From a virus, in IMG/VR virus record IMGVR_UViG_3300010370_000003, positions 1 to 42,854 of that record: 42,854 nucleotides of DNA. One strand, written 5' to 3'. The notes beneath the pieces were generated by a model that was not told the DNA's origin, made no database searches, and was given only the letters and a program-made list of their open reading frames with translations. Position 1 is the first letter of the stretch; every line of letters begins with the position of its first letter. Shown piece after piece: positions 4,338-42,854 of this stretch. The position numbers and the translations under genes are program-made.

Positions 4338-4340
4338 TCG

Positions 4341-4481
4341 TCAGCCCTCAGCAGGAGGTGGGTCGTCTTCGGATTCAGTCGGCCAGCCGTGCCCCGAGTT
4401 GTCGTGACCGCGCCCCTCGCAAAGCGCGCACTGCGTCTCGGCTGGATGCTGGCCCGTGCCGCCGCAATCGGGGCAGCGCAT
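4341..4481 (-). CDS. Tiny DnaJ-type zinc-finger protein
   Basis: A 46-residue protein that starts at the TGATG overlap with the preceding gene (4481). It has two CxxCxGxG-like modules, CPDCGGTG and CALCEGRG, spaced as in one DnaJ zinc-binding unit, followed by an acidic/proline tail. This should bind a single Zn ion. It could help fold or assemble virion proteins, but no substrate can be inferred. It is easily missed because it lies inside longer spurious frames. Confidence 0.75.
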   Translation of the reverse strand: MRCPDCGGTGQHPAETQCALCEGRGHDNSGHGWPTESEDDPPPAEG

Positions 4482-5513: not shown

Positions 5514-5645
5514 CTATAGCCGCCCCAACCATCGCCACGCCAGCAGCCCCACGGCAAGCGCCGCACGCTCGCAGCGCAGCCAGATGAGCGCCTGCCAGAG
5601 TGCTAACAGGCAGTCGGCAATCAGCGCCGCAGCCAGCCGCCTCAC
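5514..5645 (-). CDS. Tiny membrane protein of the lysis cluster
   Basis: A 43-residue frame starts at GTG 5645, overlapping the preceding stop (GTGA), and ends at TAG 5514. It is strongly hydrophobic, with Leu/Ala/Trp-rich helices (LIADCLLALWQALIWL and AALAVGLLAWRWLG) broken by two Arg and a Glu. It probably spans or lies along the inner membrane. It may be a second holin, an antiholin or a lysis accessory protein. The stop is followed at once by the ribosome site of the endolysin. Confidence 0.6.
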   Translation of the reverse strand: MRRLAAALIADCLLALWQALIWLRCERAALAVGLLAWRWLGRL

Positions 5646-5788
5646 AGCGCAGCCCAGTAGCGGCGCGCAGCAGCCTCAAGAGCGCGCTCAAGCTCCTGCA
5701 CCCGTGCGCGCGGTAGGCCCTCAGCCTGACGCGCCCTGACAAGCGCCAGCGCGGCGCGCAGTACCTGCTCGCGCGGATGCTCAGTCAC
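5642..5788 (-). CDS. Tiny helical protein in the lysis cluster
   Basis: A 48-residue frame from GTG 5788 (overlapping the preceding gene by 8 bases) to TGA 5642. It is a single amphipathic, Ala/Arg/Glu/Leu-rich helix (EQVLRAALALVRARQAEGLP). There is no membrane segment. The overlaps at both ends and lack of any other good frame support it. No family recognised; a small soluble accessory protein is all that can be said. Confidence 0.55.
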   Translation of the reverse strand: MTEHPREQVLRAALALVRARQAEGLPRARVQELERALEAAARRYWAAL

Positions 5789-20703: not shown

Positions 20704-20725
20704 TGCTTCATCTCCTCATGATGAA

Positions 20726-20769
20726 CGCTGCGATATGCAGCGGGACCATCGGCGGGAGTTGCACCCGCC
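20726..20769 (-). other. Two GC-rich hairpins in the leader of 20164-20703
   Basis: Within the 106 bases between the homing endonuclease stop and the next start there are two perfect hairpins: CGCTGC/GCAGCG around a 5-base loop (20726-20742) and GGCGGG/CCCGCC around a 7-base loop (20751-20769). Outside these, GACCAT (20744-20749) pairs with ATGGTC (20798-20803). No T-tract follows, so this is not an intrinsic terminator. It may stabilise or process mRNA. Confidence 0.6.
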
Positions 20770-20809
20770 ATCACGCTCGCGCGCGACTGCGACTCGCATG
20801 GTCTGTCGT

Positions 20810-30862: not shown

Positions 30863-31140
30863 CAGTTGCTCGTCCTGTCTGGTGCGATGTCGAGTTGCAC
30901 CACAATCTGTTCGAGACGCATCGGGCACCAGCGCGGCGGCACCGTGGGCGGCTCAGTCGCGAGGTCGTCGCTGCCGACGATGAGCCGGTCGTCTTTGACG
31001 CGACAGGTGTGCTCGATGCGCAGCGCGTCGGCCGACTCACCGATGATGTCAGTGGCCGTAAACGGGCACGTCTGGCAGCCGCCGAAGATGATCAAGCGCA
31101 TCGCGGGCGCAAGCGTAGCAGCGTGCGAGCACGGCGTCAT
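30862..31140 (-). CDS. Small Cys-containing protein (phage unknown)
   Basis: A 92-residue protein from ATG 31140, overlapping the preceding stop by ATGA. Cys residues are spaced CQTC, then HTCRVKDDR, then PRWCPMRLEQ; similar small proteins with a PxWCPxR ending occur in many phages, without a known role that I can cite. It may form a zinc ribbon. A longer upstream frame is a shadow of the neighbouring zinc gene. Confidence 0.65.
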   Translation of the reverse strand: MTPCSHAATLAPAMRLIIFGGCQTCPFTATDIIGESADALRIEHTCRVKDDRLIVGSDDLATEPPTVPPRWCPMRLEQIVVQLDIAPDRTSN

Positions 31141-31481
31141 CGATGCCTCGCAGACGGCCAGCGCTTGCGGCCCTCGTTGTGCCTGACCTTCGCGACCGCC
31201 ACCGAGCACACCGGTCCGCAGTAGCGCACGCGGTGCTGGTATGTCGCGCGGATGAACAGCTCGCCGCAGTGGCCGCACTTTGTCGGCGCTTCCTTGCGAT
31301 ACGGGCCCGGCCACTTCTTCGTGCCGTCGCGCGGCATGATAGGCACGCCTGACTTGAAGAATGCTGCGTTGCAGTCGTCCTGCGCTGCAGGCCAGTGTGC
31401 CGCGACTCCGCAGCCGTAGCAACGGCGCAACGGGTCACCATCCAGCGTCAAGCCGTCGTCGTAGAAGACGTGCTGTCTCAT
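31137..31481 (-). CDS. Zinc-finger quartet member D
   Basis: A 114-residue protein, fourth of four tandem paralogues. The pattern is DGL...RRCYGCGVAAHWPAAQDDC, then KKWPGPYRKEAPTKCGHCGELF and YCGPVC, so two Cys clusters as in its neighbours. It starts at ATG 31481 (ATGA). The N-terminus differs most from the others (RQHVFYDDGLTLDGDP). See member A for the common plan. Function unknown; a nucleic-acid or protein-binding role is inferred. Confidence 0.75.
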   Translation of the reverse strand: MRQHVFYDDGLTLDGDPLRRCYGCGVAAHWPAAQDDCNAAFFKSGVPIMPRDGTKKWPGPYRKEAPTKCGHCGELFIRATYQHRVRYCGPVCSVAVAKVRHNEGRKRWPSARHR

Positions 31482-31861
31482 GCCTTGCGTGCCTTTGCTG
31501 CCAGTCGCGCGCGACGATTCGCGAGGCGTTTGTTCTCGGCCGCGCACGCCAACGAGCAGGTCTTGCCGAGTGTGTTCATGACTGGACGTCTAAACGCGCG
31601 CGAGCAGACAACGCACGTCGGCAATGTTCCCGCCGCATACGGTCCTGTCCACTGGCCGTCGTGTAGCGGTCCCTGCGCGACGTCGCCTGCTGGCTGGTGC
31701 AGCAGCACCGACGAGCACGACGACTCCGCAGCAGGCCAGTGTTGCAGAACGCCGCAGCGACGACAGCGACGCAGTTTACCGCCGATTTCGCGCACACCCT
31801 CTAACTCCCAGTCGTGCGCGAGATACACGCCGACGTCCTCGAGCTCGTCGTCGTCAATCAT
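31478..31861 (-). CDS. Zinc-finger quartet member C
   Basis: A 127-residue protein, third of four tandem paralogues; start ATG 31861 (ATGA overlap). N-terminal segment YLAHDWELEGVREIGGKLRRCRRCGVLQHWPAAESSC closely matches member B. The second cluster is CVVCSRAFRRP with CSLAC, followed by a basic helix (ENKRLANRRARLAAKARK). The basic tail suggests contact with DNA or RNA. Members B and C are the most similar pair. Confidence 0.78.
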   Translation of the reverse strand: MIDDDELEDVGVYLAHDWELEGVREIGGKLRRCRRCGVLQHWPAAESSCSSVLLHQPAGDVAQGPLHDGQWTGPYAAGTLPTCVVCSRAFRRPVMNTLGKTCSLACAAENKRLANRRARLAAKARKA

Positions 31862-32247
31862 CGCTGTGCTCGCTTGAGAGCACGCTTGATGCGTTGCCGC
31901 TCTGCGCGGCGACGCCGGTCTTTGGTGTGTTTGCAGGACGAGCTGCACGTCGACGCGTTGCCGTATCCGATTGGTCGCCGGAAAGCACGCTCGCAAATCA
32001 CACACGTCACCGTCGGATGCCGCGCAAACGGGCCGGGCCATTGGTCGGCGAATAGCGGTGGAGTGTCGTGGTCGATTTCAGGGCGGTGCTCGAGGACGGT
32101 GGCACAAGACTCTGCGCTCAGAGGCCAGTGACGCAGCGCGCCGCATCGGACGCATCGATGGCGTTCGCCGCCGACCTCGCGCACGCCGTCGTGCGTCCAG
32201 TCGTGCGCCAGGTACGCGATGCGCTCGTCGACGTCGTCATGCGCCAT
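31858..32247 (-). CDS. Zinc-finger quartet member B
   Basis: A 129-residue protein from ATG 32247, overlapping the preceding gene by 11 bases. First cluster: CVRCGALRHWPLSAESC; second: CVICERAFRRP with CSSSC; the segment DQWPGPF lies between. The tail is strongly basic (KDRRRRAERQRIKRALKRAQR). The N-terminus YLAHDWTHDGVREVGGERHRC is shared with member C. Probably a recent duplicate of C. Confidence 0.78.
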   Translation of the reverse strand: MAHDDVDERIAYLAHDWTHDGVREVGGERHRCVRCGALRHWPLSAESCATVLEHRPEIDHDTPPLFADQWPGPFARHPTVTCVICERAFRRPIGYGNASTCSSSCKHTKDRRRRAERQRIKRALKRAQR

Positions 32248-32605
32248 CGCGCTGTGCCTCGCGCTTGCGTGCGTAATGTGCAGCGACGTGGTCGCGATTG
32301 CGCTCGCGCTCATGCTCGCGCACGCAGACTGGCCCGCAGTAGGCGAGCGCTCGGTATCGCTTCGGCTGTCGAAAGCGCGTCTCACAGCGCTTGCACGTGC
32401 GCCACGCGTTGTGTTTGTACGGCCCCGGCCATCGCGTGATGTCCGCTGCGAGCGTCGTGCGTTCGTCTCCAGCGCGATGCGAAATCATCCACGGGCACGC
32501 CTCGCGCGCGCCAATCCAGTGCGCCAGCATCCCGCACTTCGCGCAGCGTCTACGAGGCTCGCCCCATTCAAGCACGCCGTCGATTTTCCACGTGTGCGGC
32601 TTCAT
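32237..32605 (-). CDS. Zinc-finger quartet member A
   Basis: A 122-residue protein from ATG 32605, coupled to the helicase gene by ATGA. It has Cys21-x2-Cys24 with a following HW and Cys37, then WPGPYKHN and a second cluster Cys71-x2-Cys74 and Cys90-x3-Cys94. The second cluster resembles a treble-clef finger. The C-terminus is basic with many Arg. The four neighbours repeat this plan, so the block arose by tandem duplication. No catalytic His or Asn of HNH nucleases is clearly placed, so I call it a zinc-binding protein only. Confidence 0.78.
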   Translation of the reverse strand: MKPHTWKIDGVLEWGEPRRRCAKCGMLAHWIGAREACPWMISHRAGDERTTLAADITRWPGPYKHNAWRTCKRCETRFRQPKRYRALAYCGPVCVREHERERNRDHVAAHYARKREAQRDGA

Positions 32606-33921
32606 CGACGTCCTCGTCGGTCGGTGTAGAGCGTTGAATCTTCGACGGCGTCTACCTCTTTGAGACTGCCGCCCGCGCCGCGCTTGAACTGGAACGTGAC
32701 GCCATTGCCGCCCGTCTTGCCCTTGACGATGCGGCCGTGGACGACAGCGCTGTCCTGCTCCTCTTTGCGCCACAGCACGATGACGAGTTCCGCGAGGTGC
32801 GCGAGGTCGCGTGAGTCGCGCAGGTCATGCTTGCCGGGTTCCTTGCCCTCGCCACGCTCGACGGTGAGTTGCGATGCGAGCCAGACCGGGATGCCGAGTC
32901 GCGACGCAGCGGCCTTGATGCGCGACGCAATGGTGCGCACCTCAAGACGCGTGTTCTCGGTCTTCGTGCTGCACGTGATTGCCTGTGCGTAGTCGACGAA
33001 GACGACGTCGCAGTGCATGACGCGCACGAGCCGCGCCATCTCGCGCACGACGTCGGAGTCAGTCGCGCCGGGGATGCACGACGTCACGAATCCCGCGGTC
33101 GGTCCCGCTTGCCGCGTTGTCGCGACGGCGTGCGCGATGCGCTCGTGGTCTTCGTAGCTGAGCTGCTTGGCGCGGATGGCGTGCCCGCTGACGCGCGAGA
33201 ATCGCGACAGCAGACGGTCCTCGATAAGCTGGCGCGGGTCTTCGATGCTGATGTATCCGAGCAGCAGCTTCTGCGCGCCGAGCTTCTCGCCCATCGTGAG
33301 CGCCAGCGAACTCTTGCCGACGTTGGTGTCTGCGCCGACGATGGCGAGGTCGCCGGGGCCGAGGCCCGCGATAGCCTCGTCGACGGCGCGGATACCTGTT
33401 GGCACCAGTCCAATCTGGTCAGTGCTGGTGGCGCGCAGGTAGGCTCGCTCGACGCCCTCCGCGAGCGAGAACGACTCGACGCTCGACGCTGCGTCGTCCT
33501 CGAGCGCGGCTGCGCAGTGAACGGCAGCGCCCGCGACGTTCTCGGTGCGCACGGCCGCGAGCGCGTCTAGCAGGTGCCGCTCCTTGCGACGCAGCCCTGC
33601 GAGCGCGAGCACGCGTGCGTGGACGACCGCGACGTCGACGAGCAGCGCGCCGCCAGTCGAGAGCGCGTACACGACGTCGGGACCGCCGAGCGCGTCGAGC
33701 TGCTGGCGCTGTCGGAGGTGCGAGACGACGGTGGCTTCGCTGACGCGCAGAGACGCGTCTAGCAGGCTGCGTACGGCGTTCGCGACGGCCTCGTGTAGCG
33801 GCACGGTCCAGGCGTCAGCGGGGCAGCCGTACGCGTCGGCAACGCGCGCATCGGCCAGCATCGCAGCGAGTAGGGCGCGCTCGGCGCTGACGTCGCAGAG
33901 CTGCTCAGCCTTCGAGGTCAC
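32602..33921 (-). CDS. Replicative DNA helicase, DnaB-like
   Basis: A 439-residue RecA-fold helicase. Residues 1-130 match the DnaB N-terminal domain (AERALLAAMLADARVADAY, FSL at 151). Walker A is GADTNVGKSS (196-205), the catalytic Glu is in YISIEDP (Glu227), and Walker B is VVFVDYAQ (306-313). A later motif (IPVWLASQLTVERGE, then DLRDSRDLAHLAELVIVLWRKE) matches H3/H4 regions. It uses GTG 33921 and overlaps the initiator gene by 17 bases. It should form a hexamer that opens phage forks. Confidence 0.9.
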   Translation of the reverse strand: MTSKAEQLCDVSAERALLAAMLADARVADAYGCPADAWTVPLHEAVANAVRSLLDASLRVSEATVVSHLRQRQQLDALGGPDVVYALSTGGALLVDVAVVHARVLALAGLRRKERHLLDALAAVRTENVAGAAVHCAAALEDDAASSVESFSLAEGVERAYLRATSTDQIGLVPTGIRAVDEAIAGLGPGDLAIVGADTNVGKSSLALTMGEKLGAQKLLLGYISIEDPRQLIEDRLLSRFSRVSGHAIRAKQLSYEDHERIAHAVATTRQAGPTAGFVTSCIPGATDSDVVREMARLVRVMHCDVVFVDYAQAITCSTKTENTRLEVRTIASRIKAAASRLGIPVWLASQLTVERGEGKEPGKHDLRDSRDLAHLAELVIVLWRKEEQDSAVVHGRIVKGKTGGNGVTFQFKRGAGGSLKEVDAVEDSTLYTDRRGRR

Positions 33922-34870
33922 GCCACTTCTCCTTCGGCTTCGGCGGTGGCGGCAACTGACCAGCCCAGTCGTCCAGCCACAAATGCGGCTGCGTGCTCTC
34001 GTTGCGGTTCTCGCGGTGCTTGACCCACTGCTCGAAAGCTAGCGCGCACAGGTCGTCGGGCGCTAGGTCGAGTTTCGCAGCCATCTCGCGAATCTCCTCG
34101 ACGACCTCATCGGCACGAGCAGCCATCGCGAATCGCTGCGTCGGTACGCTCCACGGCCTGCCGCGCACTTCGCCGACGACACGCTCAAGCGCTCGACGGT
34201 GGAACGAAGAGTCAGCAACCAAAGGCAATTGGGTCGTGTTCGCTGGTACAGGTCGGAGGTCGGAGGTACAGGTCAGGCGCGAGGGTATCGCGAGTGCCTC
34301 GCCAACCTCTCGCGGAACACTCGCGAGTGTCTCGCGAGCAGGCGCGGTGTCTTGGTTTTGGTTTTGGTATGGTACGGAATGGAATGGTATGGAATGGGTT
34401 GACGAACGCTCGAAGACTTGCACTCGCGAACTTCGCGCGTCGTTCGTGCGAACGTGCTCGATGCTGTTCGCGCGAACATTTCCAGATTCATCAATAGATT
34501 CGCGGCCCGTCTCTTCCCGGCGTGCCCGCTGATTAGCGCGCAACCGTCGCATTCTGTCGGCTGATTCGCGTCGCGTTTGGTCAACGTCTGCACGCGCAGC
34601 CTGTCGTTCGGTCCACTGATGGAAGCGGAAACCAGTCTCGGTTTCCTCCCAAAGTCGCACGCGAACCAGCTCCTGCGCGGCCTTCGCATGATGCCGGATG
34701 CCGAGCCGCGCGACCTTGGACGCGCTGATCTCACCATCGGTCAGGTGCTTTCCACACCACGATCCAGCCAGCGTCCAGAGCGCGATCGCGTCGCTCGCGT
34801 GCTTGCCCGTAAGCAACGCCTCGACCTTCGGATGGTCGTGGAAGCCGTCGTCAACTCTGAACCAGACCAT
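33905..34870 (-). CDS. Replication initiator-like protein
   Basis: A 321-residue protein. The N-terminus (VWFRVDDGFHDHPKVEALLTG, then LWTLAGSWCGKHLTDGEISASKVARLGI) is the HTH type common to phage replication initiators or organisers. The middle is a low-complexity stretch rich in Ser, His, Gln and Asn coded by the A/T- and repeat-rich DNA at 34245-34400. The C-terminus (AARADEVVEEIREMAAKLDLAPDDL, ALAFEQWVKHRENR) is helical and could load helicase. Start ATG 34870, 26 bases from the operator at 34896. It is the first gene of the replication block and overlaps the helicase. Confidence 0.75.
   Translation of the reverse strand: MVWFRVDDGFHDHPKVEALLTGKHASDAIALWTLAGSWCGKHLTDGEISASKVARLGIRHHAKAAQELVRVRLWEETETGFRFHQWTERQAARADVDQTRRESADRMRRLRANQRARREETGRESIDESGNVRANSIEHVRTNDARSSRVQVFERSSTHSIPFHSVPYQNQNQDTAPARETLASVPREVGEALAIPSRLTCTSDLRPVPANTTQLPLVADSSFHRRALERVVGEVRGRPWSVPTQRFAMAARADEVVEEIREMAAKLDLAPDDLCALAFEQWVKHRENRNESTQPHLWLDDWAGQLPPPPKPKEKWRDLEG
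34245..34400. other. Candidate replication origin inside the initiator gene
   Basis: Several repeat types concentrate here. GGTACAGGTC occurs at 34245 and 34265 (20-base spacing). TCGCGAG-type words occur four times between 34280 and 34340, including perfect palindromes ACTCGCGAGT (34319-34328) and CTCGCGAG (34331-34338). Next comes a run of GGTTTT and GGAATGG-type repeats (34352-34400), less GC-rich than the surroundings. Iterons followed by an easily melted tract inside an initiator gene is the lambda O layout. That analogy is inferred. Confidence 0.5.
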
Positions 34871-34895: not shown

Positions 34896-34905
34896 GCGCT
34901 AGCAC
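34896..34905. promoter_or_regulatory. Operator-like palindrome copy
   Basis: GCGCTAGCAC, one base from the perfect palindrome GTGCTAGCAC, lies 26 bases upstream of the initiator start. The neighbouring minus-strand sequence shows no strong -35/-10 pair. It should be read with the copies at 35996, 37101, 37116 and 37193. Confidence 0.55.
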
Positions 34906-34967
34906 TGGACGGACCACGTGAAATGAGATATGAAACCGCATCGGGAAACCTCCATTTTCTCGGTCAC

Positions 34968-34996
34968 GGGCTCGGGCGTCTCACCGCCGCGAGCCC
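34968..34996. other. 11-bp hairpin in the gap before the initiator gene
   Basis: GGGCTCG (34968-34974) pairs with CGAGCCC (34990-34996), and GGCG pairs with CGCC inside, around a 6-base loop and a single-base bulge. No clear T-tract follows on either strand (ATTTCTATTG on plus). It may end part of the early transcript or protect its 3' end. The rest of 34871-35041 holds only the operator at 34896. Confidence 0.6.
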
Positions 34997-35041
34997 ATTT
35001 CTATTGAGCCGCATCAACGCTACGCGACGATGTGCAGTGCG

Positions 35042-35461
35042 TCAACGGACGTCCGCACTCTTTGTGCGATTTGATGGCCGCAGCGCAACACGTGCGAGCG
35101 CACCCATGGTGTCATCGAGCTCGGCAATCTGCGCGAGGTCGGCAATCGGGATGCGCCGCATCTCTGCGATGAGACGCCGCCATGTCGGGCGCGGCTGGTC
35201 GAGCGCGTCACGCCACTCGCCATCACGCACCGCGAGCGCGACGTCGCACTCCGCACGAGCGCGCATCAGGTCGGCCTGCACCTCGTCGATGTGCCGCGTG
35301 CGGTCGCTGACGTCGACGGCAACGAGCTTGCGCCACGCAGCCTCGAGACGCGCATCTTCGGGCTGGCCGTACCACGGCGGCAGCGAGTCGCCGCTCTCGC
35401 ACGCCGCGACGTCGGCGCGTATCAGCGCCCATATCCGCGCGCGCTGGACTGAGTCGATCAT
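35042..35461 (-). CDS. Early protein of unknown function
   Basis: A 139-residue protein starting at ATG 35461 (ATGA with its neighbour); a longer frame upstream is a shadow. It is helical and acidic/basic mixed, with SLPPWYGQPEDARLEAAWRKLVAV in the first half and ADLAQIAELDDTMGALARVAL near the end. No Cys clusters, membrane helix or known motif. Cotranscribed with a winged-helix protein, so it may be an early host-takeover or regulatory protein. Confidence 0.7.
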   Translation of the reverse strand: MIDSVQRARIWALIRADVAACESGDSLPPWYGQPEDARLEAAWRKLVAVDVSDRTRHIDEVQADLMRARAECDVALAVRDGEWRDALDQPRPTWRRLIAEMRRIPIADLAQIAELDDTMGALARVALRPSNRTKSADVR

Positions 35462-35859
35462 CGCGCGCCTTTGAGCGCGAGCCATGCCGCAACGCGCTGC
35501 AGCACCTCGTCGTCCTCGTGCGCCCGCTCGCGTAGGAACGCAGCCGCCGCGCGGAGGTCGCTCGGAGATGGCACCATCGGCCGCACGTGCGGGCCTGTGG
35601 TGCGCTGCGTATAGGCGACCCACTGCTCTGCGAAGCGTCCCGACACGCGGCACTGGCGACGTCCCTGCGGCTGCGCGTAGCCGTGACTCCGCAGCTCGGA
35701 CAAACGCTTGTGCGCGGACACGCTGCGCAAGCGCTCGTCGACCTCCCGACCCGTGAGTGGCCCTTCTGCGCGCAGCAGTTCAAGCACGACCTCACGTGCC
35801 CGCGTGAGTTCACCAGACTCTACAGCTTCCAGATACGCATCAATCGATGTCTGTTTCAT
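35458..35859 (-). CDS. Winged-helix DNA-binding protein
   Basis: A 133-residue protein from ATG 35859 with GAGGAG upstream. Residues about 1-60 form a winged-helix pattern: IDAYLEAVESGELTRAREVVLELLRAEGPLTGREVDERL, then KRLSELRSHGYAQP as wing and recognition helix. The remainder is helical. It is probably a transcription regulator. Its leader (35860-35995) has the long inverted repeat described separately, and an operator copy lies at 35996. It may be under both transcriptional and RNA-level control. Confidence 0.7.
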   Translation of the reverse strand: MKQTSIDAYLEAVESGELTRAREVVLELLRAEGPLTGREVDERLRSVSAHKRLSELRSHGYAQPQGRRQCRVSGRFAEQWVAYTQRTTGPHVRPMVPSPSDLRAAAAFLRERAHEDDEVLQRVAAWLALKGAR

Positions 35860-35895
35860 CGTCCCGTCTCCTCGACCCTTGCAGGGGTCATCAAT

Positions 35896-35990
35896 CGAAC
35901 CAGCGGAGCCGCCTGCCATTGCACCGACGCAACGGGGGGGAAAGTAGTCGACGCGGCAGGCGGCTCACCGCTGCAACGGCTGCTGGTTCG
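35896..35990 (-). promoter_or_regulatory. Long inverted-repeat leader of the winged-helix gene
   Basis: Left arm CGAACCAGC (35896-35904) pairs with GCTGGTTCG (35982-35990), and GAGCCGCCTGCC (35906-35917) pairs perfectly with GGCAGGCGGCTC (35955-35966). The intervening 37 bases include a run of seven G. A further small hairpin (GACCC/GGGTC) lies just before the ribosome site GAGGAG of 35859. The region is noncoding on both strands. It looks like a structured mRNA leader or a protein-binding site. Confidence 0.7.
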
Positions 35991-35995
35991 CGCGA

Positions 35996-36005
35996 GTGCT
36001 AGCAC
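35996..36005. promoter_or_regulatory. Operator-like perfect palindrome
   Basis: GTGCTAGCAC, extended to the 12-base palindrome AGTGCTAGCACT (35995-36006). It sits in the gap between the hydrolase-like gene (ends at 36022) and the structured leader of the winged-helix gene. It is identical to the copy in the promoter at 37187-37215. Confidence 0.65.
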
Positions 36006-36021
36006 TTCACGCGCGCCAGCG

Positions 36022-36540
36022 TCAAGGCAGCCGAAAGAACGCGTTGGCCGTCGCGCCACAGTCGACGGGCTGCCAGCCGAGGCGCAGCGCTCGCGCGGTG
36101 TCGTGGCCACGGTCGCCCCAGTGGTCAGCGTCGCATCGTCTAGGCCCGCCACGACGCGCAGCGACGAGCGCGCGCTGGTAGCTGTCGAGCAGCCGCCGCG
36201 TGCTGTCTGGCGCAGGTAGCGCACGGATGCGGGCCTGCCGCGTCGTCGGCGTAGCAGCGCGATGGACGGCGCAATACGCGCGCGCCATGCGGCCGACGCT
36301 TACGTGCGCGCGTCGAGCTCGACGCTCGAGCACGTCGAGGATGGCGTCCCAGTCGGTGCCCGGCACGTTCTCCGCGACGAGGCAGCGCGCGACGTCCTCG
36401 AGGTCGCCGGGCTCTGCGACGGGCGCGGGACGTGGCTGCGCCTGTAGCGGCGACGAGCACGAGCATGAGTCGAGGCCGAGCGCGACGATGATGCTGGCAG
36501 TGATCGCGCCCATCACGACGTCGTCGAGGAAGCGGCTCAC
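36022..36540 (-). CDS. Exported protein, possible peptidoglycan hydrolase
   Basis: A 172-residue protein starting at GTG 36540 (GTGA overlap). The N-terminus has a hydrophobic segment (VVMGAITASIIVALGLDSCSCSS) that could be a signal anchor or lipoprotein signal. The rest shows VARCLVAENVPGTDWDAILDVLERRA and a C-terminal DADHWGD, GWQPVDCGATANAFF. The two parts are reminiscent of SleB/transglycosylase-like wall hydrolases, with Glu57 as a possible catalytic residue. That match is from memory and weak. A wall enzyme among early genes would be unusual. Confidence 0.55.
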   Translation of the reverse strand: MSRFLDDVVMGAITASIIVALGLDSCSCSSPLQAQPRPAPVAEPGDLEDVARCLVAENVPGTDWDAILDVLERRARRAHVSVGRMARAYCAVHRAATPTTRQARIRALPAPDSTRRLLDSYQRALVAARRGGPRRCDADHWGDRGHDTARALRLGWQPVDCGATANAFFRLP

Positions 36541-36776
36541 GCGCTGCCGCCTTTCGCGTTGGTGCGCGGGTCGCCGGCATCCTCAGCAGGCAGCGCTGCG
36601 GGCTGCTGGCCGTCATCAGGTAGCGCCACGTTGTCGGAGTCACGCGTCGCGAGCAGCGCGCAGATTGCAGCATCGCGCAGCGCGGCGATGGCCTGCGCAC
36701 CGCCACGACGAGCGACGGCGATGTGCCGCGACGCGAGGTCGAGCAGCAGAGAGCGGCGTGTGCGGCGGTCCATCAT
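36537..36776 (-). CDS. Small early protein of unknown function
   Basis: A 79-residue protein, start ATG 36776 (ATGA overlap with the preceding gene; GGAGA upstream). The first half is a basic/hydrophobic helix (RTRRSLLLDLASRHIAVARRGGAQAIAALRDAAICALLATRD). The second half is acidic and disordered. No family recognised. It could bind DNA or a host protein. Confidence 0.6.
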   Translation of the reverse strand: MMDRRTRRSLLLDLASRHIAVARRGGAQAIAALRDAAICALLATRDSDNVALPDDGQQPAALPAEDAGDPRTNAKGGSA

Positions 36777-37093
36777 TCGTCTCCGCTGCACGCCGCTTCC
36801 GCTGCGCGCTGGTGGCCGTCCTCGCGGTCGAGCTGCTGCACGTTGCGCGGGCGTCCGCGACCACGCTTGACGGGCGCGACGGCGGCGATGCCGGGCTTGT
36901 GCTCGGCGGCGACGGGCTTGTGCTGGGCGACTGCGGCGACGTGCTTGCGCTTGCCGCGCTGCGATTCAATGAGCGCGACGAGCCATGCGGAGACGCTGGT
37001 TTTGCCGCTGCCCGCGAGCAGCTGCGCGAGGGCGTACGTCTCGACTGGGACTCGTGCGTACAGAACTGGGAGCAAGGCAGATGGTTTCGTCAT
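36773..37093 (-). CDS. RHH plus AT-hook DNA-binding protein, candidate regulator
   Basis: A 106-residue protein from ATG 37093; a longer start at 37168 would place coding sequence over the two palindrome copies and lacks a ribosome site. Residues about 10-48 (VLYARVPVETYALAQLLAGSG, then TSVSAWLVALIESQR) fit a ribbon-helix-helix fold: a short strand, then two helices. Near residue 75-85 is KRGRGRPRN, a classic AT-hook. The combination predicts a small dimeric repressor or nucleoid-type regulator. Two palindrome copies immediately upstream (37101-37125) suggest autoregulation. Confidence 0.65.
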   Translation of the reverse strand: MTKPSALLPVLYARVPVETYALAQLLAGSGKTSVSAWLVALIESQRGKRKHVAAVAQHKPVAAEHKPGIAAVAPVKRGRGRPRNVQQLDREDGHQRAAEAACSGDE

Positions 37094-37100
37094 GGCGCGA

Positions 37101-37125
37101 GCGCTAGCACGGCCCGCGCTAGCAC
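37101..37125. promoter_or_regulatory. Paired operator-like palindromes
   Basis: GCGCTAGCAC occurs twice, at 37101-37110 and 37116-37125, 15 bases apart in the same orientation. The pair lies 8 bases upstream of the RHH gene start on the minus strand, in the leader or promoter of that gene. A regulator bound here could block or activate the leftward early genes. The minus-strand promoter itself is not clear to me. Confidence 0.6.
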
Positions 37126-37186
37126 GCGAGCGAAAAGTGCGAGAATCGTCGAGGAAGAAAATCGACACGGCACCCGAAAATAAAGT

Positions 37187-37215
37187 TTGACGGTGCTAGC
37201 ACGCGGGCGTATATA
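37187..37215 (+). promoter_or_regulatory. Sigma70-like rightward promoter with embedded operator
   Basis: TTGACG (37187-37192), a 17-base spacer and TATATA (37210-37215) form a good sigma70 promoter for the plus-strand operon starting at 37260. The perfect palindrome GTGCTAGCAC fills the first ten bases of the spacer (37193-37202), so a bound protein would compete with RNA polymerase. This is the main divergent control region of the genome. Confidence 0.75.
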
Positions 37216-37259: not shown

Positions 37260-37442
37260 ATGACCAAATCTTGCGACGACATGACGTGCAGCGTTTGCAA
37301 TCCATCATCCGAATGGGTTTGCCGCCGCTGTTTCGACCGGGCCGAGGACGCGCATCTTGAATACCTCGACCAACAATCAGCGAAGTTGACGTCACGCATC
37401 AACGTCGGCATCAACAAAATCAACGTCGAGGTGCCGTCGTGA
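37260..37442 (+). CDS. Small CxxC zinc-knuckle protein
   Basis: A 60-residue protein, first of the rightward operon, behind AAGGTGA. Residues about 9-25 hold TCSVCNPSSEWVCRRCF, a CxxC-x8-CxxC zinc ribbon. The same module opens the protein at 41288-41743 (TCDVCTSSSDWVCRRCY). The tail (TSRINVGINKINVEV) is beta-type. It is early, tiny and probably binds a nucleic acid or an RNA polymerase subunit; this is inference. Confidence 0.75.
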   Translation: MTKSCDDMTCSVCNPSSEWVCRRCFDRAEDAHLEYLDQQSAKLTSRINVGINKINVEVPS

Positions 37443-37567
37443 GCCGCCGTCCCGCTCACCCGCACGTCGGCCTCCACGCCGCCCTCGTCGCGCTTGCGCA
37501 GGGATGCCAGTGCGCCGCCTGCCAGCAGCTCCGCGAGCGCGTGCTGCGCGCTGGGAGGCCGTCGTGA
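37439..37567 (+). CDS. Tiny Cys-rich protein
   Basis: A 42-residue frame from GTG 37439 (GTGA with the preceding stop) to TGA 37567 (TGATG with the next ATG). It contains GCQCAACQQLRERVLRAG, a tight CxCxxC cluster on an amphipathic helix. Precise overlap at both ends is the main support. Family unknown. Confidence 0.55.
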   Translation: MSRRPAHPHVGLHAALVALAQGCQCAACQQLRERVLRAGRPS

Positions 37568-38046
37568 TGGGCCGCTACTGGGTGCGCGTCCGCGCGGAAT
37601 ACGTCGTGCCCGTATTGGCGACCTCGCGCGAGGATGCGCTCAGCCTTGACGCTGGCGACCTCGTCGACGACATGACGCCCGAGCGGCTGTATTCTGCCGA
37701 GCTGCTCAGCGCGTCGCCCGACAGCGAGCGCGCGAGCATGGGCGCGGTCGCAGAAAGCATCCTCGACGCCGAGCAGCGCGCCGAGCACGAGCTTGACCTC
37801 GCGATGCTCGACGTCGGCGCGGCGGTGCGCGAGCATTTTCAGCACGTGCGCGGCATCCCGCGCGAGACGCTCGAGGCGCACGTCGAGGATGTCATCCGCG
37901 GCATCGCGGACGAGATTGCGCGCGAGCATATCGCGGAGGGTGACGACGACTGGCAGGCACGGCGCGCGGCCATCGTCGCGGGTATCAACAAGCGGGCAGC
38001 ATCATCGGCGAAGGCATACACAAAGTGGAGGACTGACAATGAGTGA
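37567..38046 (+). CDS. Early protein of unknown function
   Basis: A 159-residue, mostly helical protein. The N-terminus (GRYWVRVRAEYVVPVLATSREDAL) resembles the beta-strand start of small DNA-binding or regulatory proteins. The rest is charged helix with many Ala, Glu and Arg (EDVIRGIADEIAREHIAEGDDDW). Start ATG 37567 by TGATG. The end overlaps the Gp157-like gene by 8 bases. Confidence 0.7.
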   Translation: MGRYWVRVRAEYVVPVLATSREDALSLDAGDLVDDMTPERLYSAELLSASPDSERASMGAVAESILDAEQRAEHELDLAMLDVGAAVREHFQHVRGIPRETLEAHVEDVIRGIADEIAREHIAEGDDDWQARRAAIVAGINKRAASSAKAYTKWRTDNE

Positions 38047-38548
38047 CACGACGACCAAGACGGGACTGCGGCTTTACGAACTTGCACCGGCATACGCGTA
38101 CCTGATCGACGCGCTCGACGAGGACGGCGATGCCAGCGACGGGCACGCGCACCTCGACGCGCTGAGCGATGCCATCGACCAGAAGGCGGCCAGCATCGCG
38201 CACGTGCTCGCGCAACTCGACGCCGAGGCCGAGGCTTTGCGCGCGGAGGAGAAGCGACTGGCGGCGCGGCGGCAGTCTCGCGAGCGGCGCGCGGAGTCGC
38301 TGCGTGACTATCTGCGCATGAGCCTCGATGCGGCGGGCGTCGCGAAAATCAAGAGCGCGACGCACACCATCAGCGTCGGCGACGGCCCGCAGCGCGTCGT
38401 CGTCGAGGACGAGGGCAGCGTGCCCGCCGAATACCTCCGCACGAAAATTGAGGTTGACAAGCGCAGCATCCTTGAGGCAATGAAGGCGCACGGCGAATGC
38501 GTGCCTGGGACGCGCATCGAGCGGACGCGCGTGTTGCGCATCAAGTGA
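38039..38548 (+). CDS. Gp157-family protein
   Basis: A 169-residue protein from ATG 38039 with GGAG 8 bases upstream. Family signs: LRLYELAPAYAYLIDAL at the N-terminus, a long coiled coil (LDAEAEALRAEEKRLAARRQSRERRAESL) and a C-terminal domain with YLRMSLDAAGVAKIKSATHTISV and KIEVDKRSILEAMKAHGECVPG. Members of this siphovirus family are encoded beside recombination genes, and one was linked to phage resistance in Streptococcus; the molecular role is not settled. It is followed at once by the RecT-like gene, in keeping. Confidence 0.82.
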   Translation: MSDTTTKTGLRLYELAPAYAYLIDALDEDGDASDGHAHLDALSDAIDQKAASIAHVLAQLDAEAEALRAEEKRLAARRQSRERRAESLRDYLRMSLDAAGVAKIKSATHTISVGDGPQRVVVEDEGSVPAEYLRTKIEVDKRSILEAMKAHGECVPGTRIERTRVLRIK

Positions 38549-38574
38549 ATCCCCTATCCAAACAAGGTGAAGAC

Positions 38575-39462
38575 ATGAGCGATATCATCAAGACCACCAG
38601 CGGCCTCGACATGGTCGCGAGTCTGTCGGACGTGCTGCGACTGGCCGACACGCTGGCGCAGGCGCGCGGCGGTTTCATCCCGTCGCACTTCCAGAACTCG
38701 GCGCAGGTTGCGGCGGTCATCCTTGCCGGGCGCGAGCTCGGCGTCGGGCCGATGGCGAGCTTGCGCAGCTTCTACCTCGTCGGCGGCAAGCTCGGCATGG
38801 ACGCCAGCTTCGTGTCGGGCCGTATGCTCGCGCATGGCGTCGGCCTCGAGTGGCTGCGCGACGACGACGAGTGCGCGTCGGTGCGTCTCTCGCGCGCGGG
38901 GATGCCGCCGTACACGTCGACGTTCTCGCGTGCCGACGCCGAGCGTGCGGGCCTCTGGAACACGGCAACGTGGCGCAAGTATCCGCGCGCGATGCTGCGT
39001 GCGAGGGCCATCACGGCAGGCGCTCGCGCGTATGCCGCGGACTGTTTCGCTGGCAGCGTCTACACGCCCGACGAACTGCGCAGCGGCAACGTCGCCGACG
39101 ACCGCGACGAGCAGCCCGCGCAGCGCGTCCAGCAGCCCGCAGAGCGCGTCGAGGCTGCGGCACCGCCTGCCGTCATCGAGGCGCATGGCGAGCCCGCTAC
39201 GCAGCCCGCAGCGGCCGACGATGTGGCCGGACGAATCGTCGCGGCGTACGACGTGGCGTCGACCGACGTCGAGATTGCGCAGCTGCGCACGGCGCTCGTC
39301 GCAGCGCACTGGCAGCAACTCTCGCGCGACGACCGTGCTCGCGTGACGTCGGCAGCGCACCGTGCGCGGCAGCGCGTCGAGGCCGCACGACAGGGACTGA
39401 TTGCGCAGCTCGAGGCTGAGCGGCGCGCGGACATCGCAGAAGAGGAGGATGACGACCGATGA
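38575..39462 (+). CDS. RecT-like single-strand annealing protein
   Basis: A 295-residue protein from ATG 38575 behind CAAACAAGGTGA. The N-terminal two thirds resemble the RecT/Bet family as found in GC-rich phages: DVLRLADTLAQARGGFIP, AAVILAGRELGVGPMASLRSFYLVGGKLGMDASFV, GVGLEWLRDD, then WRKYPRAMLRARAITAGARAYA. The C-terminal third is Pro/Ala-rich linker and coiled coil. It anneals complementary strands for recombination-dependent replication with the SSB next to it. No exonuclease gene is seen nearby. Confidence 0.72.
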   Translation: MSDIIKTTSGLDMVASLSDVLRLADTLAQARGGFIPSHFQNSAQVAAVILAGRELGVGPMASLRSFYLVGGKLGMDASFVSGRMLAHGVGLEWLRDDDECASVRLSRAGMPPYTSTFSRADAERAGLWNTATWRKYPRAMLRARAITAGARAYAADCFAGSVYTPDELRSGNVADDRDEQPAQRVQQPAERVEAAAPPAVIEAHGEPATQPAAADDVAGRIVAAYDVASTDVEIAQLRTALVAAHWQQLSRDDRARVTSAAHRARQRVEAARQGLIAQLEAERRADIAEEEDDDR

Positions 39463-39881
39463 GCGCAGACCAGAACACGATTCACTTGACGGGCCGCGTC
39501 GTGCGTGACGCTGAGATTCGCGAGACGAAGAGTGGCGAGCAAATCGCCAACGTTTCCATCGCGGTCAATGGCTACAAGCGCGACGACGAGGCGACGTTCT
39601 TCACGTTGACCCTGTTCGCGAAGAAGGCGGCCGTCGCGCAGTATCTCAAGAAGGGCACGCGCGTCGCCGTCAACGGGCGGCTCAAGCAGCGCAAGTACCC
39701 AAAGAAGGACGGCACCGAAGGCGTTTCGCTTGAGGTCGCCGTCAACGACTTGACCTTGCTCGGCGGCAAGAACGAGCGCGACACGAGCGACGGCCCGCTG
39801 ATCGAGCACAAGCGCGGCGCGCGCCCTGGCAACGACTGGTCGAGCGACGCCGCAAACGACACCGACGACATTCCGTTCTGA
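39459..39881 (+). CDS. ssb: Single-stranded DNA-binding protein
   Basis: A 140-residue OB-fold protein. NTIHLTGRVVRDAEIRETKSGEQIANVSIAVNGYKR and TFFTLTLFAKKAAVAQYLKKGTRVAVNGRL are the family core; the C-terminus ends in the acidic DDIPF tip that recruits partner proteins. It is ATGA-coupled to the RecT-like gene. It coats single strands in replication and recombination. Confidence 0.95.
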   Translation: MSADQNTIHLTGRVVRDAEIRETKSGEQIANVSIAVNGYKRDDEATFFTLTLFAKKAAVAQYLKKGTRVAVNGRLKQRKYPKKDGTEGVSLEVAVNDLTLLGGKNERDTSDGPLIEHKRGARPGNDWSSDAANDTDDIPF

Positions 39882-39909
39882 CAATCAACGCAAACAAGGT
39901 GAGGCGAAC

Positions 39910-40302
39910 ATGAGCACGATGGAAGAGGCACGACTGAGCGAGATGTATGACCAGCTCTGCGAAGCGCTGGACAAGGTGGCCGATGCGCTCCACGCGAACG
40001 GCCAGCCCAACGACATGGTGATCGAGCGTGCGCGCGAGATGACGCTGCGCGCGTTTCGCGCAGAGGGCGAGCGCGACAGCGCCAAGCGGCTGTGCGACAT
40101 CATGCGCGACTACCACGACCGCGAGGTGCGCGAGCTGCGTGCGGAGCTCGACGTCGTGCGGTCGCGGCTGATGACGGTGACGTCGGAGCGCGACACGCTG
40201 CGCAGGTCCGAGGACGCCGAGCGCGCGTATCGCGAGCGGCAGAACGCGCAGACGCTGGCCGAGGTCAAGGCGCTCGGCGCAAAACTGCGGGGTGAGCCGT
40301 GA
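39910..40302 (+). CDS. Coiled-coil protein
   Basis: A 130-residue protein behind CAAACAAGGTGA. Almost the whole length is charged heptad sequence (EDAERAYRERQNAQTLAEVKALGAKL), predicting a long coiled coil; a short start with AHALHANGQP-type residues precedes it. Function unknown, possibly an assembly or regulatory adaptor. Its stop overlaps the next GTG. Confidence 0.7.
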   Translation: MSTMEEARLSEMYDQLCEALDKVADALHANGQPNDMVIERAREMTLRAFRAEGERDSAKRLCDIMRDYHDREVRELRAELDVVRSRLMTVTSERDTLRRSEDAERAYRERQNAQTLAEVKALGAKLRGEP

Positions 40303-40676
40303 GCCACAAAGACGGGCGCGTCGTGCTGTCTGCGTGGGTCGAGCCAGTGCTGCGGGACTATGCGCGCGAGGCGGCACGAGCCGCTGGCGTCCAGTTCTCG
40401 CTATGGGTCGAGGGCGCGGTGCAGCGTGCCGTCGCAGAGCAATCGGCGGCGAAGGCGCTGCGGATATATCCAGTGCACGCGTCGCATCTCACCGACGTCG
40501 TGACGCTGCTAGAGGACGAGCGCGACAAGCTGCGCGCAGAGCGCCGTCAGCTTCGCGCGCGACTCGTCGAGTGCCTGCCGTTCGTCGGCGTGTGCCCGCT
40601 GGAACCTAATCGAATCCAGTTGATGCATCTCGTGCGCGACCTGGCGGACGACACGCTCGAAGAGGTGAAACCGTGA
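40299..40676 (+). CDS. Unknown protein with RHH-like N-terminus
   Basis: A 125-residue protein from GTG 40299 (GTGA overlap). The start (VLSAWVEPVLRDYAREAARAAGVQFSLWVEGAVQRAVAEQ) has the strand-helix-helix look of a ribbon-helix-helix protein. A coiled-coil middle (LEDERDKLRAERRQLRARLVECL) and a short C-terminal helix follow. It could be a transcription regulator. Family not recognised. Confidence 0.65.
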   Translation: MSHKDGRVVLSAWVEPVLRDYAREAARAAGVQFSLWVEGAVQRAVAEQSAAKALRIYPVHASHLTDVVTLLEDERDKLRAERRQLRARLVECLPFVGVCPLEPNRIQLMHLVRDLADDTLEEVKP

Positions 40677-41284
40677 CGCGCGAAGAGCTTGATGCCGTAC
40701 GCAATCACATCAGCAATCTGCCGACCGTAGGCGCGATGTATGCGCCTGTCTTGGTCGAGTGGGTATCCGTGCTGTTGCGCCAGCGGGACGAGGTTACGGC
40801 GCAAAGAGACAACGCCGTTGACGCGAGCAAGGAAGGCGCGTGGATGGCGCGCGCGCTAGATGCGGAGCGCGAGCGCGACGAGGCGCGGCGTGACCTTGGC
40901 GAGATCCTCGCCGTGATCCACCGAGACGGCGGCCATCGCACGGGTGAGCGCGGGCTCTCGCAGTCTGTGGCTGACGCGCACGCGACTTGGGCTGCGGTGG
41001 TACGCGAGCGCGAAGAGGCGCAGGCTGAGCTTGCATTTCTGCGAAAAGAATATGGCGAAGCCGAGTCCAGTACTCTCACTCGCGATGCGCTGGAACTGAA
41101 GCTCCAAGTGATGGAGCAGCAGCGCGACGAGGAGCGCAAGCATCATGACGCCCTGCGAGCCGTGTGGGTTGCCGCAAGCGACTGGCTCAATCACCTCGCG
41201 CAAAATCGCGTTCATTACAGCGACGACGGCTTTGGCAATTTGCTGGATGCGGTTTACGCGGCCGATGCGCGGATGACGGGGTGA
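40673..41284 (+). CDS. Coiled-coil protein of unknown function
   Basis: A 203-residue protein from GTG 40673. The N-terminal 35 residues form a globular helical segment (LDAVRNHISNLPTVGAMYAPVLVEWVSVLL). The middle is a charged coiled coil with many Arg and Glu, and a C-terminal helix (ALRAVWVAASDWLNHLAQ) is followed by a short tail. Partner or function unknown. It belongs to the set of coiled-coil proteins between SSB and the methyltransferase. Confidence 0.7.
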   Translation: MTREELDAVRNHISNLPTVGAMYAPVLVEWVSVLLRQRDEVTAQRDNAVDASKEGAWMARALDAERERDEARRDLGEILAVIHRDGGHRTGERGLSQSVADAHATWAAVVREREEAQAELAFLRKEYGEAESSTLTRDALELKLQVMEQQRDEERKHHDALRAVWVAASDWLNHLAQNRVHYSDDGFGNLLDAVYAADARMTG

Positions 41285-41287
41285 GCC

Positions 41288-41743
41288 GTGACTGACGCCA
41301 TCACGTGCGACGTCTGCACCTCATCGTCCGACTGGGTGTGCCGTCGCTGCTACGACGCGCTGTCGCGCGCGGAGAACGCGACGCGTGAGCAATACCTCGC
41401 CGCCGAGTTGCGCGCGAGAGGGCGCACCGACGCTAGCGACGCGGAGGACCACGCGCTGCGACGCGCGCTAACCGGCGTAGTCAACGACGCGATCATCGTG
41501 CTGAAGGCCCGCGTGAAACTGCTGGCCGTCGAGGAAGGCCGCAGGTCCAAGGTGTACCGCACGGCAGTCGCGCGTCTCGACGAGCTGCGCGACGCGCACA
41601 ACAGGCTGCAATTGTTGCAGGTCGACTACTCGCACGCGCGGATGCTGCTGCACGGATGGGTGCAGGCGCGCAAGACTGGCGACGTCGGTGACGAAGAGTT
41701 CTTCCTCTCGCGAGCGCGAGAGTATTTCGAGGTGCGAGAATGA
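41288..41743 (+). CDS. Zinc-knuckle and coiled-coil protein, paralogue of 37260-37442
   Basis: A 151-residue protein from GTG 41288. The first 30 residues (TCDVCTSSSDWVCRRCYDALSRAENA) repeat the CxxC-x8-CxxC module of the first rightward gene. The rest is a helical, partly coiled-coil domain (LRRALTGVVNDAIIVLKARVKLL). This suggests domain fusion or duplication of the small zinc protein. Function unknown; it is ATGA-coupled to the next gene. Confidence 0.72.
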   Translation: MTDAITCDVCTSSSDWVCRRCYDALSRAENATREQYLAAELRARGRTDASDAEDHALRRALTGVVNDAIIVLKARVKLLAVEEGRRSKVYRTAVARLDELRDAHNRLQLLQVDYSHARMLLHGWVQARKTGDVGDEEFFLSRAREYFEVRE

Positions 41744-41958
41744 CGACGCTGTACCAAGGCACCTCACCACTACCCGTCATCGAGGTCGGGATGCGCCTGC
41801 GCGACGGCTGGGGCTGCGTCTGGCGCGTGGTCGAGGTGCTCGACGGCGGGCTGACTGTCGGGCTGCAATCGGCGCGCGAGGGCTCGCGATTGTGGCTTGA
41901 CGGCGCGAGCGTGCGTGTGTGGGGCTTGGCTGAGGACTGGACGACGTGCGCTATCTGA
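41740..41958 (+). CDS. Small beta-rich protein before the methyltransferase
   Basis: A 72-residue protein with a beta pattern (IEVGMRLRDGWGCVWRVVEVLDGGLTVGLQ) and several Trp, like a small SH3-type fold. The end overlaps the methyltransferase start by 13 bases, so translation is linked. It may help or modulate the enzyme. Family unknown. Confidence 0.7.
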   Translation: MTTLYQGTSPLPVIEVGMRLRDGWGCVWRVVEVLDGGLTVGLQSAREGSRLWLDGASVRVWGLAEDWTTCAI

Positions 41959-42854
41959 GCGTGTGCAGCGGCATCGAGGCCGCAAGCGTGGCGTGGCACT
42001 CGATGGGATGGGAGCCTGTCGCGTTCAGTGAGATTGACCCGTTCGCGAGTGCGGTGCTCGCGGCGAGATTTCCTGACGTGCCGAATCTCGGAACGATGGA
42101 GAACTACCGTGAGTGGAACATCGAACAAGGTGCAATTGACGTTCTCGTGGGTGGAACTCCCTGCCAATCGTTCAGCGTCGCAGGACTCAGACGCGGACTT
42201 GATGACCCACGTGGGAACCTCGCGCTCGTCTATCTTGGACTGGTTGACCGATTCCGGCCTCGCTACATTGTCTGGGAAAACGTGCCCGGTGTCTTGTCAT
42301 CCAGCGGAGGACGGGACTTTGGTGCCTTCATCGGGGCGCTGGCGCAGCTCGGGTATGGGTTCGCCTGGCGAGTGCTGGACGCTCAGTGGTGCCGAGTGGA
42401 CAGCCACCCTCGTGCCGTCCCACAGCGACGGAGGCGTGTGTTCGTTGTCGGATGTGCTGGAGGCGACTGGAGACGTGCCGCCTCGGTTTTACTTGAGCCC
42501 GAAGGCGTCGCTGGGGATCCTCCGACGCGCCGAACGTCGCGGGAAGGCACTCCCCGAAGCCCTGCGGCTGGCGCTCGAGACGGTAACATCGCGGACGTGA
42601 GCCCGACCGTCGCCGCGAAGTGGAGCAAGGGCACGGGCGGGCCCGCCGGCGACGAGGTGCAGAACCTTGTGCCGGACGTGGAGCCCACGCCCTTCGACAC
42701 GACGCAGATCACGCACCCCGCTAACCGCTCGCAACCGCAGCCGGGCGACCCATGTCACCCGCTCGCGCGCGGAGCTCACGCGCCTGCGGTGGCGTTTCAA
42801 TGGCCTGTCGATGTCGCGGACCCTATCACGGCGAACGAAGGCGCGACGTACAGC
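41946..42854 (+). CDS. Cytosine-5 DNA methyltransferase, N-terminal part (continues at base 1)
   Basis: This is a Dcm-type enzyme that transfers a methyl group from AdoMet to C5 of cytosine in DNA. It starts at GTG 41946, overlapping the end of the preceding gene by 13 bases. Visible motifs are motif I around CSGIEAASVAW (residues 7-17), the acidic FSEID (27-31), the catalytic motif IV GGTPCQSFS with Cys73, ENVPGV (motif VI) and QRRRRVFVVG (motif VIII). The target-recognition segment follows and runs off the window edge. Joined to 1-360 it gives 381 residues, normal for the family. It probably protects phage DNA from host restriction; the recognition sequence cannot be read from here. No partner endonuclease is visible, so it looks like an orphan enzyme. 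Confidence 0.95.
   Translation, partial: MRYLSVCSGIEAASVAWHSMGWEPVAFSEIDPFASAVLAARFPDVPNLGTMENYREWNIEQGAIDVLVGGTPCQSFSVAGLRRGLDDPRGNLALVYLGLVDRFRPRYIVWENVPGVLSSSGGRDFGAFIGALAQLGYGFAWRVLDAQWCRVDSHPRAVPQRRRRVFVVGCAGGDWRRAASVLLEPEGVAGDPPTRRTSREGTPRSPAAGARDGNIADVSPTVAAKWSKGTGGPAGDEVQNLVPDVEPTPFDTTQITHPANRSQPQPGDPCHPLARGAHAPAVAFQWPVDVADPITANEGATYS
42732..42854. repeat. Terminal redundancy, right copy
   Basis: This is the identical copy of bases 1-123. It lies inside the methyltransferase gene, in its variable target-recognition part. That is an unlikely place for a biological terminus, so an assembly overlap of a circular map is the simplest reading. Confidence 0.95.

Follow-up and report, generated by a model that had tools for sequence, protein, structure and literature searches.

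A CTAG-centred palindrome in the early promoters of an uncultivated phage and the small encoded protein that probably acts on it

The palindrome and its distribution

The window analysed here is the whole 42,854-nucleotide stretch of IMG/VR virus record IMGVR_UViG_3300010370_000003 (positions 1 to 42,854), which has a 123-bp terminal repeat and so forms a circle of 42731 bp with a G+C content of 66%. Its presumed early region possesses a 10-bp word, GTGCTAGCAC, and a one-mismatch variant, GCGCTAGCAC, situated in its three intergenic regions, among them the one between a leftward gene for a small protein and a rightward operon. Judging from its sequence context, this word is very probably a repressor docking site in early promoters, and the repressor is most likely the small DNA-binding protein encoded beside the sites, which has a ribbon-helix-helix (RHH)-like domain and an AT-hook. 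Relatives of the phage comprise approximately 50 IMG/VR contigs (G and L numbers below), found by means of helicase, terminase and RHH searches. The features of the central locus are the following.

36773-37093, minus strand: gene for a 106-amino-acid RHH-like protein with a C-terminal AT-hook, candidate operator-binding repressor
37101-37110, unstranded: putative proximal operator GCGCTAGCAC, 7 bp upstream of the ATG of the RHH gene
37116-37125, unstranded: putative distal operator GCGCTAGCAC, also in the RHH leader, 22 bp ahead of the start codon; conserved in G008, G001 and L006
37177-37184, plus strand: A/T-rich tract AAAATAAA; the same offset is A/T-rich in most of the 15 promoter copies compared below
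37187-37192, plus strand: -35 hexamer TTGACG; TTG is invariant and TTGAC present in 14 of the 15 copies
37193-37202, unstranded: putative operator GTGCTAGCAC, filling the spacer of the rightward promoter
37210-37215, plus strand: -10 hexamer TATATA after a 17-bp spacer; TAnA is invariant (15/15 copies)
37260-42600, plus strand: rightward early operon, the predicted target, with Gam-like, RecT-like, SSB and methyltransferase genes

The rightward promoter has the layout AAAATAAA, gt, TTGACG, a spacer composed of GTGCTAGCAC followed by GCGGGCG, and TATATA, and it points into the rightward operon, whose first candidate open reading frame (ORF) begins at 37260. It thus has the TTGACA-like and TATAAT-like hexamers, 16-18 bp apart, of a sigma70-type promoter. 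A genome-wide scan identified two strong sigma70-like candidates in the window, with that at 37187-37215 being the only one in the early region; a stricter scan listed none, as it required T at position 6 of the -10 hexamer. The AAAATAAA tract just upstream of the -35 hexamer may represent an UP-like element or a target of the AT-hook.

A first-pass annotation of this DNA had reported five sites, all of which are exact in the sequence, namely GTGCTAGCAC at 35996 and 37193 and GCGCTAGCAC at 34896, 37101 and 37116. Its description of a 10-bp palindrome is accurate for the GTGCTAGCAC copies, those of GCGCTAGCAC being imperfect. Combining both words, the class GYGCTAGCAC has eight members on the two strands of the circle, five in the early intergenic regions and three in coding DNA (7252, 12109 and 29700), the latter also listed in the annotation and being minus-strand copies of GCGCTAGCAC. 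The expectation for the circle from Markov models (orders 1-4) is just 0.2-0.5 such sites, compared to the eight found. With a refined gene model, noncoding DNA amounts to 1421 bp (3.3%) and holds five of the eight (hypergeometric P = 2e-6), and with a deliberately generous noncoding set the bias is still present (P = 1.3e-3). The annotation had placed all five sites in noncoding DNA, which holds apart from the site at 34896, whose status is uncertain as it lies inside a possible 23-codon ORF.

When octamers were ranked blindly by their concentration in noncoding DNA, TGCTAGCA, GCTAGCAC and GTGCTAGC were at the top. All three early intergenic regions possess a site, and four larger late gaps (606-761, 4338-4480, 5567-5780 and 20704-20809) have none. 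With 34 observed and 134 expected, the tetramer CTAG is underrepresented about fourfold in the genome, in agreement with the earlier remark that words containing it are uncommon. At up to two mismatches the genome-wide count is 31 against 29.7 expected; as there is no excess at this distance, the signal is that of a tight word.

The putative operator and its candidate repressor in related phages

Fifteen distinct promoter copies from nine contigs have an operator within the -35/-10 spacer. In a comparison of these copies, the operator columns stand out along with both hexamers and the A/T tract. The operator starts 1 bp past the -35 hexamer in 14 copies, with no such gap in the copy of the window. 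There are also extra operator-bearing promoters within the rightward operon of G008 (1816), G001 (7891), L007 (1399), G011 (4505), G013 (13045) and G022 (11457 and 11745). The first genes behind the rightward promoter differ between phages, the regulatory DNA being kept.

Both the promoter-slot and the RHH-leader sites have kept their positions among the relatives. In the close clade (G008, G001 and L006), with RHH proteins 69-76% identical, the promoter-slot and tandem leader sites are conserved, the proximal leader copy of G008 reading GTGCTAGCCC. The distant clade contains L007, L009, G011, G012/G013 and G022 (RHH identity about 38-45%). In its RHH leaders, GCGCTAGCAC or a different CTAG word is kept at a constant spacing to the start codon, and its second rightward promoters have CTGCTAGCAC, TTGCTAGCGC or CTGCTAGCGC in the same slot, while the first promoter in L007, G011 and G013 is degraded to a half-site, GATATAGCAC or GATATAGCTC. 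A CTAG is found at -14/-15 from the RHH start codon in all relatives except L129 and L130, which have CTAC there.

In the L129/L130 lineage, the site type has switched to TGTCTAGACA in the promoter slot and the RHH leader alike. The slot carries CTGTCTAGACAG (reading CCTGTCTAGACAGG) and the leader TATCTAGACAG, and GCTAGC is absent from the DNA retrieved for these two contigs. The CTAG core and the slot are kept and the arms are altered at both places, which is the trace expected of a single dimeric regulator with altered specificity; as one event, it is suggestive of this, not proof. G022 is mixed between the two operator types.

With two tandem sites just ahead of its start codon, the RHH gene has the palindromic or repeated operator near the own gene that is looked for in RHH-type regulators, and the location of these sites points to autoregulation. 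Neither the window nor its relatives show an apparent Shine-Dalgarno sequence ahead of the RHH gene, suggesting that the transcript may be leaderless. A leaderless leftward promoter with a -10 hexamer TAGCGC over the proximal CTAG (14-9 bases before the ATG) was also considered; it is too weak to claim.

In silico analysis of the 106-amino-acid protein shows an N-terminal domain, LPVLYARVPVETYALAQLLAGSGKTSVSAWLVALIE, and a C-terminal AT-hook, KRGRGRPR, with the GRP core and basic flanks of this motif. The Pfam AT_hook domain is present in all eight homologues (8/8), with the window protein falling slightly under the curated cut-off (16.0 vs 17.4 bits). Searching 177,635 PDB sequences, the best matches of the RHH family profile are Arc (E 0.055) and 1y9b (E 0.17), and a profile from a longer alignment gives E 0.076 and 0.044 for these, respectively. 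Pfam lists no RHH family for the protein or its homologues. The full-length structure prediction is poor and a domain-only model is better, if not decisive (mean predicted local distance difference test score [pLDDT] of 70; residues 1-16 extended, helices at 17-28 and 34-49); an extended segment with two helices is present in both. In fold searches with the two models among 350,542 PDB chains, all the matches listed are Arc structures, at E above 1. In Arc, the DNA-contacting residues are Q9, N11 and R13. At the aligned positions the close clade has V/Y/R and the distant clade A/F/R, the arginine being invariant. From this weak homology together with its gene position, the protein appears to belong to the RHH type.

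The RHH gene is present in all region-spanning contigs examined (window, G008, G001, L006, L007, L009, G011, G012, G013, G022, L129 and L130). The g79, g172 and helicase genes are widely shared too; it is the RHH gene that has sites in its own leader. No relatives of the protein were found in 50,697 phage records, nor was there any match to the early DNA in them. Named phages have no DNA relatives of the window, with matches to its terminase and helicase only below 60% identity. A host search through the helicase in bacterial genomes gave one uninformative match of 25% to Parabacteroides. A further protein, at 40299, picked by eye as an RHH candidate, was rejected, since neither an RHH match in the PDB nor any match in the distant clade was found for it.

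Small, mutually related CxxC proteins (KCGMLAHW-type) are another feature of these phages, present in many relatives and at several copies per genome; they form tandem arrays at 31049-32773 (minus strand) in the window and at 13814-15376 in L017.

Remaining sites and rival explanations

The two remaining sites and their surroundings are as follows.

33905-34870, minus strand: replication initiation protein gene (phrog_2447, E 1.2e-34), a possible target
34896-34905, unstranded: GCGCTAGCAC site, one mismatch, upstream of the initiator gene; shared only with the near-identical G008
35458-35859, minus strand: gene for a small protein, the winged-helix protein of the first-pass annotation, matching a family of unknown function (phrog_1123, E 1e-7); a possible target
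35897-35989, minus strand: large imperfect hairpin directly past the operator at 35996; L006 differs from window/G008 by two compensatory pairs
35996-36005, unstranded: putative operator GTGCTAGCAC, upstream of the 35859-35458 gene; present in G008 and L006, absent in G001

The site at 35996 comes after the stop codon of ORF 36022-36540. Behind such a site, the window and G008 have the winged-helix gene, whose only homologue found is the one in G008, and L006 has a helicase-like ORF. In that contig (2198-4566) the winged-helix gene is replaced by the helicase-like ORF (SNF2-type by eye) followed by a methyltransferase-like ORF. The arms of the adjoining hairpin are GAACCAGC...GAGCCGCCTGCC and GGCAGGCGGCTC...GCTGGTTC, the next gene differing between phages, and it could possibly be a leader RNA or an origin structure. 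Site 35996 reads GAGTGCTAGCACT, for which the CIRCE element of HrcA was considered. CIRCE is a spaced inverted repeat; such a repeat is absent, and the other sites have no such extension, so this identification was discarded.

The site at 34896 appears to be the weakest and least secure member of the set. It lies within a possible upstream ORF of 23 codons (34941-34870, minus strand), MRFHISFHVVRPVLARAFEGRMH, which has a GGAGG Shine-Dalgarno sequence and a stop codon overlapping the ATG of the initiator gene, an arrangement that would make translational coupling possible.

The first-pass annotation had regarded the whole set as a regulon in which one phage protein controls the initiator, winged-helix, RHH and rightward operon genes. 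For the promoter of the rightward operon and the RHH leader, whose sites keep their positions in relatives, this stands well. It is reasonable for the winged-helix-led unit, where the site is kept in L006 ahead of an unrelated ORF and lost in G001. It is doubtful for the initiator gene, with a one-mismatch site in the window and one near-identical relative and a possible upstream ORF over it. That a single phage protein serves the set is likely, with the RHH/AT-hook protein as the strongest candidate. It is considered probable that GTGCTAGCAC is the operator of an autoregulating RHH/AT-hook protein (37093-36773) which shuts off early promoters.

A number of observations weigh against this reading. 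Three copies of the site are in coding DNA, the first promoter copy of the distant clade has just the half-site GATATAGCAC, and neither a leftward promoter nor a Shine-Dalgarno sequence is evident for the RHH gene. The RHH matches are singly weak (sequence E ~0.05, fold E above 1, mean pLDDT 58-70). The RHH proteins of L129 and L130 are identical, so that the specificity switch counts as one event. In addition, L129, with its TGTCTAGACA sites, and L007/L009, with GTGCTAGCAC-type sites, share the strand core ALFVR, the only difference being in the N-terminal arm (SVQ against SSK).

A host-encoded binder is a further consideration on that side. The palindrome would then be the operator of a host regulator, exploited by the phage to sense the state of its host. 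This is improbable, although in an unrelated phage group another gene is preceded by a 20-bp double word, GTGCTAGCACGTGCTAGCAC, so that a regulator outside the present family can apparently use the same word. The tandem sites of the RHH leader and the concerted arm change in L129/L130 are a better fit to a phage autoregulator. The double word itself occurs in L085 (963), L087 (8714), L089 (7367), L103 (3902), L109 (11458), L111 (12355) and L119 (1280), in each case intergenic and close upstream of a zinc-ribbon-like gene (MANRDRTTCRRCG), and no RHH homologue was detected in these L085-L119 contigs.

Somewhat less probable again is that the palindrome is part of the promoter, for an alternative sigma factor or a phage-modified polymerase, or that it is an activator site. 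In rightward promoters it is always in the spacer. However, with hexamers close to the sigma70 consensus and a spacing at its optimum of 17 bp, no activator is needed, the sites at the RHH start and at 34896 are outside this promoter frame, and the spacer arms vary between lineages where the hexamers stay. An iteron-like function, with the sites bound by the replication initiator and marking the origin, has a slim chance of being correct. The sites surround replication genes, the conserved hairpin adjoins site 35996, and initiator and helicase genes are common to the relatives. The fixed -35/-10 register and the copies in internal rightward promoters would be unexpected of iterons, however, and the initiators have diverged (47% identity in G001, 40% in L007) though the word is the same.

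The putative winged-helix protein, called DNA-binding in the first-pass annotation and encoded beside a site, can be ruled out as common regulator, as no homologue was found in the site-keeping G001, L006, L007, L009, G011, G012 and G013. Chance, coding coincidence or a restriction-site pattern could account for the coding copies and the missing excess at two mismatches, and is next to impossible given the observed number of sites, their noncoding bias and their conservation in relatives.

Proposed mechanism and comparison with known systems

The sites, their enrichment, their fixed register in the promoters of relatives and the concerted change in one lineage are features of the sequences themselves, whereas the RHH type of the protein, its binding of the palindrome, its repressing and not activating role, its early action and its contact through the AT-hook are inferred. 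Early in infection, the RNA polymerase of the host would transcribe from the rightward promoter as well as through the leftward RHH operon. Dimers of the accumulating RHH protein would place a beta-ribbon in the major groove at the 10-bp palindrome, both between the hexamers of the rightward promoter and at the two tandem sites of the RHH leader. Bound there, they would block RNA polymerase and turn both units off. Affinity may be increased by contact of the AT-hook with the A/T-rich tract next to the -35 hexamer. Since near-consensus hexamers at 17 bp need no activator, a protein bound in the spacer would most simply act by blocking polymerase. No tyrosine integrase or serine integrase/recombinase was found in five large genomes, and for this reason a lytic timing switch, shutting off early transcription, fits better than lysogenic immunity.

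These findings provide a regulatory map of promoter, operator, probable repressor and targets for approximately 50 uncultivated phage contigs. The operator-switching lineage also makes it feasible to test how a beta-ribbon repressor alters its DNA specificity. More tentatively, the spacer CTAG palindrome and the A/T tract may form a bipartite signature, read by an RHH repressor with one to three AT-hooks. One lineage would have jointly exchanged its GTG/CAC operator arms for TGT/ACA at two places, with the slot unchanged, and the phages would then be a natural series for the evolution of RHH specificity.

The operator of phage P22 Arc likewise sits between the -35 and -10 hexamers of PANT. Like Arc in the immI region, the protein described here would be a small RHH repressor in a phage early region, acting on the promoter of its own transcript. 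During lytic growth, the PANT transcript that encodes Arc is repressed by Arc itself (PMC12111858). There are differences, however, with a 10-bp CTAG-centred palindrome here in place of the 21-bp Arc operator with its two half-sites, one or more added AT-hooks, and several promoters with sites; no Ant or C2 system is seen here and the sequence match to Arc is not significant alone.

In the archaeal virus SSV1, dimers of the RHH protein F55 bind repeats that lie in or beside immediate-early promoters and the promoter of F55 itself (PMC5569661). Binding of RHH type at early promoters and the own promoter would be common to both. F55 keeps lysogeny and uses tandem ATAGATAGAGT-type repeats, whereas no integrase was found here and the host is presumably bacterial. 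AT-hooks of the RGRP kind are also present in a bacterial regulator, CarD of Myxococcus xanthus (PMC4374960). The likeness is one of AT-hooks in a bacterial-type regulator, with the folded domain of CarD binding RNA polymerase and that of the present protein being RHH-like.

In phage lambda, Cro and CI control divergent early promoters through operators that overlap promoter elements, with an early protein that is autoregulating. The locus described here differs in having an RHH-like and not a helix-turn-helix protein, with no second repressor seen and integration genes not found; it resembles lambda in its proposed divergent early switch, its putative operator over promoter elements and its probable early autoregulator. 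In the open literature searched, no paper joins ribbon-helix-helix, AT-hook and phage, and by title and abstract the publications returned for the word itself concern unrelated subjects. The system is of a known kind, a small phage repressor with early-promoter operators. As far as tested, what is new is a protein without relatives in phage records, the combination of RHH and AT-hook in a phage, and a CTAG-centred operator whose specificity appears to have switched naturally.

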